Under the pieces are notes generated by a model. That model saw only the letters and a program-made list of their open reading frames with translations. It ran no database searches and was not told where the DNA came from. 32,896 nt of DNA from Centipeda periodontii DSM 2778 (GTDB lineage: Bacteria > Bacillota > Negativicutes > Selenomonadales > Selenomonadaceae), in NCBI RefSeq assembly GCF_000213975.1, contig NZ_GL892076.1:2443809-2476704 (forward strand), written 5' to 3'. Position 1 is the stretch's first letter. Every line of letters begins with the position of its first letter. Of this stretch, positions 15,653-18,916 are shown one piece after another. Made by a program: the position numbers and the translations under genes.

Positions 15653-15690
15653 CAATAAAAAAAGAGAACCCCGTCAGCAGGTTTCTCTTT
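15653..15690 (-). terminator. Terminator of the LacI-type repressor gene
   Basis: On the minus strand AGAGAAACC pairs with GGTTCTCT (one bulged base), followed by a run of seven T. The hairpin begins within the last codons of the repressor gene and separates it from the cscA promoter. Confidence 0.75.
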
Positions 15691-16648
15691 CGATGAGTTC
15701 CGGTTCGCAGGTGCACGGCAGGTCGTCCATCTCCCCTTTGACGCGCCGCACGATTTTCTCCGCCGCGAGCCGTGCGAGCTGCCTGATCGGCTGCCGCACC
15801 GCAGTGATTGGCTGCGCCCCCGTGCACGTGAAGCTTGTGCCGTCATACGCGATGAGCTTTAGCTTTTCGGGGATACGGTATCCACGCGCGACGGCACTGT
15901 GCTGACAGGCGGCGACGACCATGTCCGCGCCGAGGATACCGTCAACGGCGGGGTACTCTGCAAAGAGGCGCTCCGCCGTCTGCAAAAAGTCCGCATAACC
16001 GAATGCGTTCCACGGCAGTTCGATGACGTGTACCTCCACGCCGTACGCCTCCATGATGGTGCGGAATGCGCGGTGATACTCGTGTGCGGGCGAGTGTACG
16101 CCCTGATAGCCGATGATGTCCGCGATGCGCCCGCAGCCCGCGCGCAGGAACGCCTCCGCCGCGAGCTGCCCGCCACGCCGATGGTCACAGTGGACAATCG
16201 GGATACGCGGATTGATGATACGATCGAATGCGATGATCGGCTGATCGAGGCCGTCGTAAATGGAGAGGTCGAGCGAGTGCGCCCCCATGATGATGCCGTC
16301 CATTGTCCGCCGCCGCAGCATATCCACAAAGTCGCGCTCGGAATTCTCCTTCGCCTGCGTGCAGCAGATCATCATTTTATAGTCCAGATGATAGAGCGCC
16401 GCCTCCAGCTCCTCCGCGAGTTCACCAAAGAAGGGGTGCGAGAGTGACGGCAGGATGACGCCTATGGTCTGCGTCCGGCTGAGCGAGAGATTCCGCGCCA
16501 CCTCGCTCGGGATATAGTTTAGCTTTTTCATCGCCGCCTCGACTTTTTGGCGCGTTGCCTCCGAGACATAGCCTTTTTGGTTCAGGACGAGAGACACGGT
16601 GCTCGCCGCAACGCCCGCCTCCCGTGCCACATCCTTTATCCGCGCCAT
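15674..16648 (-). CDS. LacI/GalR-family repressor of sucrose genes
   Basis: A 324-residue LacI-family regulator. The N-terminal helix-turn-helix and hinge read MARIKDVAREAGVAASTVSL, VLNQKGYVSEATRQKVEAA and LNYIPSEVARNLS. The remainder is the periplasmic-binding-like sugar sensor. The ATG at 16648 is preferred because GGAG lies 6 bases upstream and LacI proteins begin close to the recognition helix; the frame stays open for 19 more codons upstream. It sits directly upstream of cscA and the perfect operator palindrome, so a ScrR/CscR-like role is inferred. The inducer (sucrose, fructose or a phosphate ester) is not visible from sequence. Confidence 0.9.
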   Translation of the reverse strand: MARIKDVAREAGVAASTVSLVLNQKGYVSEATRQKVEAAMKKLNYIPSEVARNLSLSRTQTIGVILPSLSHPFFGELAEELEAALYHLDYKMMICCTQAKENSERDFVDMLRRRTMDGIIMGAHSLDLSIYDGLDQPIIAFDRIINPRIPIVHCDHRRGGQLAAEAFLRAGCGRIADIIGYQGVHSPAHEYHRAFRTIMEAYGVEVHVIELPWNAFGYADFLQTAERLFAEYPAVDGILGADMVVAACQHSAVARGYRIPEKLKLIAYDGTSFTCTGAQPITAVRQPIRQLARLAAEKIVRRVKGEMDDLPCTCEPELIERETC

Positions 16649-16707
16649 ATGTGCTCCATCTTCCTGCCCGTTCCATACATCTTCATAGCTTTTCTCCATA
16701 TACACAG

Positions 16708-16713
16708 ATTGTA
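16708..16713 (-). promoter_or_regulatory. Possible -10 box of the LacI-type repressor gene
   Basis: Minus-strand TGATACAAT is an extended -10 (TGnTACAAT) about 60 bp before the start codon. No good -35 box is seen. Confidence 0.4.
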
Positions 16714-16823
16714 TCAGTAATTCTCAAATTCAAGATTTTATGTCTTTTCCCTTCTTTCCCGCCCATCCCTGCGGAAAAAAATTCCCGCTTCATTACCTTT
16801 TTTTCGCGCTCACGCCAAAACAT

Positions 16824-16852
16824 TTGACAGGGGCTTCATATTCTGTAATAAT
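16824..16852 (+). promoter_or_regulatory. Promoter of brnQ
   Basis: TTGACA at 16824-16829 is followed after 16-17 bp by TAATAAT (16846-16852). Transcription would begin near 16858-16862, downstream of the ATG at 16851, which makes that ATG unusable as the start of brnQ. Confidence 0.75.
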
Positions 16853-16907
16853 GAAGGATATTGTATTTTCATTGTTATTCTGTGTAACAATTTTGGAGGG
16901 AACTGCC

Positions 16908-18245
16908 ATAAACTCATTGAAAAAGAAAGACCTCTTGACGCTCGGCTTTATGATGTTCTCCATCTACTTCGGCGCCGGCAATCTCATCTTCCCAACCGCG
17001 CTCGGACAGGCGGCGGGCGATCACACCTTGATCGCGATGCTGGGTTTCATGACGACGGGCGTCGGACTTCCGCTGCTCGGCATCACGGCGATCGCACTCG
17101 CGGGCGGCGAATACGCCTCTCTGCTCCACGAGAAGACGTGGCCGCGCTTTGCAACGGTACTGCTCGTCATCCTCTATCTCATCATCGGGCCGCTCTTCGC
17201 GATGCCGCGTACCGGTGCCGTTTCGTTCGAGATCGGCATCCGCCCGTTCCTCGGTGAGGAAAATCTCGGGCTCGGTCAGCTCATCTACACGGCGATTTTC
17301 TTTGCGACGTCCTACTATCTCGCGCTGAACCCGAACAAGATCATCGACCGCGTGGGCAAGATGCTGACACCTGCGCTCCTGCTCGTCCTTGCCATCCTCT
17401 TTGTGCAGGCGTTCCACGCCCCGCTCGGAAATATCCTTGCACCGACGGGCAGCTACATCGACGCACCGTTCGCACAGGGATTCCAGGACGGCTATCAGAC
17501 GATGGATCTGCTCGCCTCGATCGCCATCGGTGCGCTCATAGCGAACGCCGTGCGTCTGCGCGGGATCACGGACAGCCGCGCCATCGGCGCCGCGTGCCTC
17601 GTCTCGGGGCTCATCACAGTTACGCTGATGGCAGTGGTCTACGGCTCACTCGCTTACATCGGCGCGACGAGCGCATCCGTGCTCAGCCACTCGGAGAACG
17701 GCGGTCAGATTCTCTCGGGCGCGGTCGACATCTTCTTTGGTGCAGCAGGAAATCTGCTCCTTGCCGTTATCATCGGTCTCGCATGCCTGACGACCTGTTG
17801 CGGCATTACCTCGAGTGCCGCGATGTTCTTCAACAAGCTGCTGAAGGGGCGCGTTTCGTATGAACGCCTGCTCCTCTTCTCGATTCTCTTCAGCTTTGCC
17901 GCATCGAATATCGGTCTGACACAAATCATCGCCCTTGCGATTCCGTTCCTCGTCGTAATCTATCCGCTCATCATCGTGTTCGTCATTCTCTCGCTCTTCG
18001 ACCGCTTTATCGGATGGCGCAAGAGCATCTATCAGGGCGCGATGGCATTGACGCTCATTTTCTCACTGATCGACGGTCTGCATGCAGCAGGTCTGAGCAG
18101 CGCTCCGGTACACGCGCTGCTTGTAGAGTATATTCCGTTCTATGCAATCATGATGGGCTGGGTCTGTCCCGCAATCGTCGGTACACTCGTCGGCTTCGGC
18201 GTATCGCTCTTTCAGACAGCTCCGGTGACGGCGGAGGAAGCGTAA
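16908..18245 (+). CDS. brnQ: Branched-chain amino acid:cation symporter BrnQ, probable ATA start
   Basis: A 445-residue LIVCS-family transporter for leucine, isoleucine and valine, with about 12 hydrophobic segments. The N-terminus KKKDLLTLGFMMFSIYFGAG followed by NLIFP is the family signature. The frame is open far upstream, but similarity starts at the residues NSLKKKDLL. The ribosome binding site GGAGGG (16895-16900) has ideal spacing (8 bases after GGAGG) to ATA at 16908, exactly where Met is expected. The nearest ordinary start is TTG at 16917, which is 17 bases from GGAGG. The ATG at 16851 precedes the predicted transcription start. So either ATA is used, TTG is used, or the sequence has an ATG-to-ATA change. 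CodY is encoded 3 kb away and controls brnQ in other Firmicutes, but I found no convincing CodY box. Confidence 0.9.
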   Translation: MNSLKKKDLLTLGFMMFSIYFGAGNLIFPTALGQAAGDHTLIAMLGFMTTGVGLPLLGITAIALAGGEYASLLHEKTWPRFATVLLVILYLIIGPLFAMPRTGAVSFEIGIRPFLGEENLGLGQLIYTAIFFATSYYLALNPNKIIDRVGKMLTPALLLVLAILFVQAFHAPLGNILAPTGSYIDAPFAQGFQDGYQTMDLLASIAIGALIANAVRLRGITDSRAIGAACLVSGLITVTLMAVVYGSLAYIGATSASVLSHSENGGQILSGAVDIFFGAAGNLLLAVIIGLACLTTCCGITSSAAMFFNKLLKGRVSYERLLLFSILFSFAASNIGLTQIIALAIPFLVVIYPLIIVFVILSLFDRFIGWRKSIYQGAMALTLIFSLIDGLHAAGLSSAPVHALLVEYIPFYAIMMGWVCPAIVGTLVGFGVSLFQTAPVTAEEA

Positions 18246-18304: not shown

Positions 18305-18916
18305 TCAGCGCAGCCGACGCTTCTTTTTCTTCTTCCACTTGAGATAGAAATAGACGATCGCGATAACGGAGCAGATGACGAAGATGATGCTCGCCTCATG
18401 CCCGTACTCCATGAGATCCGTCCAGTTCTCGCCAAGCATCATGCCTGCGTAGATGATCGCCGCCGTCCACGGAAGGGATCCTGCGATGGTGTAGGTAAAG
18501 AAACGCTTCGTATCGACGCGTGCAAAGCCTGCGGGCAGCGAAATGAACGTGCGAATGACGGGCAGCATGCGGCTGAAAAACACCGCCTTGAGTCCATAGC
18601 GGTCGAACCAATCCTGCGCCGTATCGACGTGGGATTTTTTGATGAAGAAATATTTCCCGTACTTGTCTACGAACGGACGTCCGCCGCGCGCGCCGACCTC
18701 GTATGCAAAAACGGAGCCAAGGAGTCCGCCTGCCATACCCGCGAGCAGCGCCCCCTCAAACGACATATGGCCCGCAGAGATGAGATAGCCCGCAAAGCCG
18801 AGAATGAGTTCGCTTGGGATCGGAATGCAGGCGTTCTCTGCCGCCATGAGCACGACGACGGCGACATAGCCCCATGAGGAAATGAACGAAAGAAATATCT
18901 GAGAGAAATATTCCAC
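18305..18916 (-). CDS. DedA-family membrane protein
   Basis: A 203-residue inner-membrane protein of the DedA/VTT family. It has the conserved ENACIPIPSE near residue 27, a re-entrant glycine-rich stretch (GMAGGLLGSVFAYEVGARGG), and the signature FFSRMLPVIRTFISLPAGFA. A strongly basic tail (KWKKKKKRRLR) should lie in the cytoplasm. DedA proteins act in envelope lipid and carrier recycling, some as undecaprenyl-phosphate or phosphatidylethanolamine flippases; the substrate here is unknown. The start is GTG at 18916 with AAAGGAGA upstream. No separate promoter is obvious in the 36 bp after the tRNA terminator, so read-through from the tRNA operon is possible. Confidence 0.92.
   Translation of the reverse strand: MEYFSQIFLSFISSWGYVAVVVLMAAENACIPIPSELILGFAGYLISAGHMSFEGALLAGMAGGLLGSVFAYEVGARGGRPFVDKYGKYFFIKKSHVDTAQDWFDRYGLKAVFFSRMLPVIRTFISLPAGFARVDTKRFFTYTIAGSLPWTAAIIYAGMMLGENWTDLMEYGHEASIIFVICSVIAIVYFYLKWKKKKKRRLR

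Follow-up and report, generated by a model that had tools for sequence, protein, structure and literature searches.

Translation of brnQ, which encodes a branched-chain amino acid transporter in Centipeda periodontii DSM 2778, very probably begins at an AUA codon, as far as sequence comparison can tell, and an AUA or AUC codon stands at the same place behind an unchanged Shine-Dalgarno (SD) sequence in 12 of the 14 genomes of the genus set. The start position, its conservation, the boundary at which coding constraint begins, the SD, and the fact that no canonical start preceded by an SD is conserved are each supported by the aligned sequences. The best reading overall, which we consider likely on these grounds, is that a weak AUA/AUC start limits synthesis of the transporter and is probably sensitive to initiation factor IF3.

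The brnQ locus and its start codon across the genus

The locus lies in a window of 32,896 nucleotides, the whole stretch of DNA that was analyzed (Table 1). In a profile search, the brnQ frame, which translates as INSLKKKDLLTLGFMMFSIYFGAGNLIFP..., matches PF05525 (E value 2.3e-139; 465.5 bits, cut-off 22.3) from five residues past the ATA codon, and TIGR00796 (435.3 bits, cut-off 243.4); both scores lie above the curated cut-offs and nearly the whole protein is covered, which places it in the BrnQ/LIVCS family. Since the score against the narrower BrnQ equivalog NF011962 is 283.6, under its cut-off of 790, the name brnQ is used here for the family at large, and leucine, isoleucine, and valine are the presumed substrates by family membership alone.

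Table 1. Features of the brnQ locus, in window coordinates
Feature	Position	Strand	Basis
brnQ-type branched-chain amino acid transporter CDS, 445 aa + stop	16908..18245	+	ORF and profile matches
Shine-Dalgarno GGAGGGA	16895..16901	+	Invariant in 12/12 ATH genomes; duplex energy
Probable start codon ATA (AUA)	16908..16910	+	ATC instead in 5/12 ATH genomes
Promoter-like TTGACA (16824-16829), 17-nt spacer, AATAAT (16847-16852)	16824..16852	+	Found in 14/14 genus genomes
In-frame upstream ATG on the -10 box, rejected start	16851..16853	+	Counterpart out of frame in 7/12 ATH genomes
TTG five codons 5' of ATA, rejected rival start	16893..16895	+	GGG/TCG/CAG in 3/12; weak duplex

In the window sequence ...ATTTTGGAGGGAACTGCCATAAACTCATTGAAAAAGAAAGAC..., GGAGG (16895-16899) is followed after 8 nt by ATA, just as an earlier note on this DNA had described it in proposing ATA as the start of brnQ. 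The note had also placed the upstream ATG on the -10 box of a promoter, and the two do overlap. This ATG would precede the transcript start predicted from the promoter-like pair, and it was rejected as a start for this and for the loss of frame among relatives. The promoter-like pair is kept throughout the genus set as its flanking bases diverge. A search of 16300-17300 against Rfam found no riboswitch and no T-box, with one sub-threshold chance match, and folding of four brnQ leaders gave no structure common to them; the start triplet was predicted to be mostly paired in two of the four.

brnQ was found in all 14 genomes of the genus set, and the loci were compared on the coding strand. In 12 of them (the ATH genomes), GGAGGGA is followed after 6 nt by ATA or ATC, both of which thus stand 8 nt from GGAGG, and this arrangement is kept despite a diverging surrounding leader. 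ATA occurs in seven genomes (G000, G002, G005, G006, G007, G008, and G011) and ATC in five (G001, G004, G009, G010, and G012), with neither ATG nor ATT in any of the 12. Named genomes among the 12 include Selenomonas infelix, S. noxia, S. felix, S. flueggei, S. massiliensis, sp. FOBRC6, and oral taxon 892. These counts bear out the proposed start; the note's view of AUA starts as rare holds in that such a start is unusual, but the trait is clade-wide rather than strain-specific and AUC is used too.

The trait is not universal in the genus, because the remaining two genomes, S. artemidis and sp. F0473 (G003 and G013), read ATG AAG GGA CTC AGT ATA/ATC, with an ATG five codons upstream of the start column that has its own SD, AAGGAG. 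S. noxia reads GTG GAG GGA CTC ACT ATC over the same stretch, so that the bases serving as SD in the ATH genomes look homologous to those that make up the first codons in the ATG form. Third-base parsimony on the brnQ tree requires at least five changes over the 14 genomes and at least four among the 12 ATH genomes. All changes at this column are between A and C, none being to G or T, and three of the four fall inside well-supported groups (G005/G012; G010/G011; G006 vs. G001 and G009). Because the 12 genomes share ancestry and support for the deep branches of the brnQ tree is weak, the nominal p values given below overstate independence.

Two features of individual loci may be recorded here. 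The 60 nt before the brnQ start are identical in the window and S. massiliensis (G007), the next 900 nt being 84% identical, and this shared leader is possibly a recombination tract. In G006, brnQ is split between two frames close to a run of N, through either an assembly gap or a frameshift.

Outside the genus, the ATA column holds ATG in 39 of 50 brnQ loci from named genomes, in agreement with the note's statement that BrnQ proteins normally have Met here. The other 11 loci comprise nine genus members, a Pectinatus locus (L103) with ATT in the column and an ATG two codons upstream, and one locus (L108) that could not be aligned at this column. Since the 39 loci with ATG all lie outside the genus, ATG is taken as the outgroup state, and in a brnQ tree that includes seven outgroup rows the outgroups are set apart from the genus by one change at the column. 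An ancestral AUG would thus have given way to AUA/AUC in the common ancestor of all or most of the genus. The note had named ATG in all close relatives as the observation that would speak against an ATA start; this pattern is seen outside the genus (39 rows) and fails within it.

Coding constraint and rival start positions

The onset of coding constraint was located from pN/pS in the 12 ATH genomes, with each row cut to its first 330 codons because of the late frame break in G006. Before the start, codons -12 to -5 have a pN/pS of 1.43, codons -8 to -5 of 2.03, and codons -4 to -1 of 0.96, the values beyond about codon -6 resting on an ungapped alignment of indel-bearing sequences. Within the coding sequence, the ratio is lower: codons 2-5 have 0.34, codons 2-9 have 0.13, codons 10-30 have 0.02, and codons 31-330 have 0.11. 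The coding constraint of brnQ therefore sets in at the ATH codon. Upstream of it, GAG GGA is identical in 12/12 ATH genomes, synonymous positions included, and GGA makes up only 58 of the 429 glycine codons of brnQ; the hexamer therefore appears to act as an SD and not as two codons.

These values leave almost no room for the suggestion that ATA is a point mutation, a sequencing error, or the mark of a decaying gene. The rarity of AUA starts speaks for it and nothing more, and against it stand the purifying constraint over codons 31-330 and the same state in 12 species-level genomes. The error alternative that the earlier note had kept in reserve is ruled out because all of these carry ATA or ATC with a conserved SD.

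A second alternative is that translation starts at an NTG five codons upstream (TTG 16893 in the window), giving (M)EGTAINSLKKK and making ATA an internal isoleucine codon. That column reads TTG in six ATH genomes, ATG in two, and GTG in one, so that nine of the 12 have an NTG there, and G003 and G013 do begin at an ATG in this column. However, it reads GGG, TCG, or CAG in one genome each, and pairing with the 16S tail differs sharply between the two positions: the duplex energy is -9.8 to -11.2 kcal/mol at the ATH codon in 12/12 genomes and -3.1 to +0.9 kcal/mol at the codon five upstream in the same 12, compared with -8.8 and -8.9 kcal/mol at the upstream ATG of G003 and G013. The tail used, GGATCACCTCCTTTC, was matched in three of the five genus genomes searched; neither it nor a longer pattern gave a match in the window's own assembly. 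Moreover, the two spacer codons between GGA and ATH vary freely (codons -2 and -1, pN/pS 1.17), whereas GAG GGA is frozen. ATA is also far over-represented for an internal isoleucine codon, with 7/12 at the start column vs. 11/369 among the internal isoleucine codons of brnQ (nominal binomial p = 1.5e-8, relatedness ignored); against the 12.1% ATA of a rough genome training set, which may include shadow frames, p is 1.7e-4 with relatedness again ignored. The upstream start is thus very improbable, an SD-less start of this kind being least easily dismissed in the two ATH genomes that have ATG there. Such SD-less NTG codons in nine genomes aside, the ATH genomes have no usable in-frame canonical start.

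A start downstream of ATA, at TTG 16917 or at a later TTG or ATG in the first membrane helix, is less credible still. In the window genome, TTG (16917-16919) lies just three codons past ATA, but the column is TTG in only 3/12 ATH genomes, CTC in 6/12, and TTA in 3/12, so it is not a conserved start, and the note was right to set it aside. The segment that such a start would leave untranslated is already constrained (codons 2-5 and 2-9, above), and the next NTG is weakly SD-paired in the 12 genomes (-1.2 to -5.6 kcal/mol).

Other explanations of the codon itself were discarded. A special AUA-reading initiator tRNA is not expected, given that AUC is also used, and a tRNA search over 800 kb returned seven tRNAs, one of them tRNA-Met (cat). 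A-to-I editing of AUA would leave AUC unexplained. With regard to possible coupling to a leader ORF, the TAA created by ATAAAC is missing wherever the start codon is ATC.

infC, other candidate AUH starts, and neighboring genes

The gene for IF3, infC, starts with ATA after AGGAGGTG in 14/14 genus genomes (start context also recorded as AGGAGGTGTTCTTGCC). Among genomes of the wider family outside the genus, 37 matched infC; 27 loci were taken, of which 24 were readable by the start pattern (three unread), and these start with ATT in 21 cases, ATC in two, and ATA in one. At residues 96-97, IF3 has Asp-Glu in 14/14 genus genomes and Glu-Gln in 24/24 readable non-genus family members, the Asp-Glu coinciding with the infC shift from ATT to ATA. 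A full second brnQ paralog is present in 11 of the 14 genus genomes and starts with ATG in all 11 loci examined, the split copy of G004 being left out. G000 and G007 gave no second match, which leaves these two with no brnQ other than the ATA-started gene among the matches.

ATH starts look rare in these genomes, although only about half of the compared pairs could be judged. Two sets of orthologous frame pairs, 147 and 211 in number, were screened for an aligned ATH with an SD of at least 5 where no canonical start with an SD of at least 4 was aligned. Three frames emerged: infC (in both comparisons), brnQ (a deliberately added control, in one of two), and one ATT, which lies inside a conserved coding stretch and is false. 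brnQ was missed in one comparison as the matched region started further upstream than the scan range allowed. Just 67/147 and 103/211 pairs had a canonical start that was aligned and had an SD of at least 4, and other ATH starts could escape the screen. A loosened version (SD of at least 4, CTG allowed, wider range) returned 25 rows; on inspection by eye, all but infC and brnQ were taken for internal codons, shadow frames, or neighbors of an ordinary ATG. A single-genome screen on coding potential and SD yielded mostly shadow frames, with ATH not enriched over other codons, and listed neither infC nor brnQ; eight of its matches were rejected as shadow frames, as unconvincing, or because an ordinary ATG lies nearby.

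The codY gene (TIGR02787, PF06018; 19366-20250, minus strand) lies some 1.1 kb downstream of brnQ, with a UptA/DedA-like gene (18305-18916) between them, and the G010 and G012 loci likewise have a codY match close to brnQ. In other Firmicutes, branched-chain amino acids are a signal to which CodY responds. At the brnQ promoter, no match to the CodY box was found within three mismatches, and the best partial matches were equaled by 18 to 194 of 200 shuffles (the lowest counts being 18 in G004, 43 in G011, 51 in G013, and 54 in G010). A LacI-family regulator (15674-16651, minus strand) is divergent from brnQ in the window genome and had no match in the examined flanks of 11 named brnQ loci.

A weak start as a possible control of transporter synthesis

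In the proposed mechanism, AUA at 16908 (AUC in some relatives) would be read by the fMet initiator tRNA with a third-position mismatch. The strong GGAGGGA SD would mark this start and load the 30S subunit on brnQ, and IF3 would reject most 30S complexes at the near-cognate codon. Since loading is strong and rejection frequent, transporter output would be low and responsive to IF3: the protein would be made at a small fraction of the AUG level, and its synthesis would rise when IF3 is scarce relative to ribosomes. The ATA start of infC in the same genomes bears on such IF3 dependence circumstantially. Thus, initiation with fMet, a reduced yield, IF3 sensitivity, and selection for weakness are what the sequences lead us to expect at brnQ. 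That IF3-sensitive attenuation is what selection has maintained is, in our view, only slightly favored.

The start may instead be real with no regulatory role, an AUG having drifted to AUA/AUC with a strong SD in compensation and the IF3 level being immaterial, and we regard this as a serious if minority possibility. As compensation predicts, the 12 ATH genomes as a group have stronger SD pairing than the 39 ATG-start relatives outside the genus (median -5.6 kcal/mol, range -2.2 to -10.3; Mann-Whitney p = 3e-7, relatedness ignored), and the use of an upstream ATG by G003 and G013 implies that the weak start is dispensable. Against drift, ATG is one transition away from ATA, yet 12/12 genomes keep ATH through the A-C changes counted above.

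The weak-start reading has precedents. IF3 destabilizes 30S complexes at starts other than AUG, GUG, and UUG and autoregulates infC, according to PMC5472188, which also describes a Streptomyces sigR GTC start repressed by IF3. In Staphylococcus aureus, PMC13009471 reports that ccpN (AUA), citZ (AUA), and cvfC1 (AUU) yield about 10% of the AUG level in RPMI medium, with ccpN AUA reaching up to 30% in rich medium, and that AUU and AUA performed alike in minimal medium; it notes extended SDs for infC, cvfC1, and ccpN and a conserved non-canonical start in cvfC1 and ccpN, and a title in its reference list gives an AUU start for Escherichia coli pcnB. In Listeria, PMC13068326 gives ATT and ATC starts for infC and rnhC, respectively, start-codon mutants of rsbW, and a reporter strength of ATG > ATA > ATT.

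Like infC, brnQ has a near-cognate AUH start after a strong SD; unlike infC, which encodes IF3 and closes a feedback loop, it has a transporter as its product, and as a target of IF3 it would stand outside that loop. It shares an AUH start with ccpN, cvfC1, and citZ, but those are other genes in another lineage, with yields measured there, and ccpN is a regulator. As with sigR and pcnB in the sources above, a non-canonical start would limit synthesis, to judge by the brnQ sequence; in contrast to them (GTC in sigR), brnQ is a transporter gene, with AUA as its codon in some species and AUC in others. ATA is likewise a weak start in the Listeria rsbW mutants, but those changes are laboratory-selected mutations, whereas the ATH start of brnQ is a fixed clade trait. 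The brnQ case is unusual among AUH starts for this clade-wide conservation. Among the open-license papers that the literature searches listed, none was noticed that describes an AUH start in brnQ or in Selenomonas; the kind is already known from infC, pcnB, sigR, and ccpN, and what appears to be new is its occurrence in this gene and this lineage, with A and C alternating across 12 species.

A more far-reaching and rather unlikely proposal is that the genus re-tuned its start-codon selection, with infC moving from AUU to AUA and brnQ from AUG to AUA/AUC, never AUU, and IF3 controlling both. ATT is absent from the brnQ starts (12) and infC starts (14) of the genus, though the independent events are few, and this absence fits, by analogy, the Listeria order in which ATA exceeds ATT, but not the like performance of AUU and AUA in S. 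aureus in minimal medium. If true, the lineage's initiation machinery would favor AUA/AUC over AUU among weak starts, and a small IF3 regulon would couple isoleucine, leucine, and valine import to the balance of ribosomes and IF3.

Very few non-canonical starts have been characterized experimentally, and start prediction relies on ATG, GTG, and TTG (PMC5472188), so that AUH-started genes risk misannotation. The 12 ATH species, the two genus members with an upstream ATG, and the ATG outgroups form a natural comparative set, which bears on IF3 control beyond infC and on why a weak start persists one transition from AUG.
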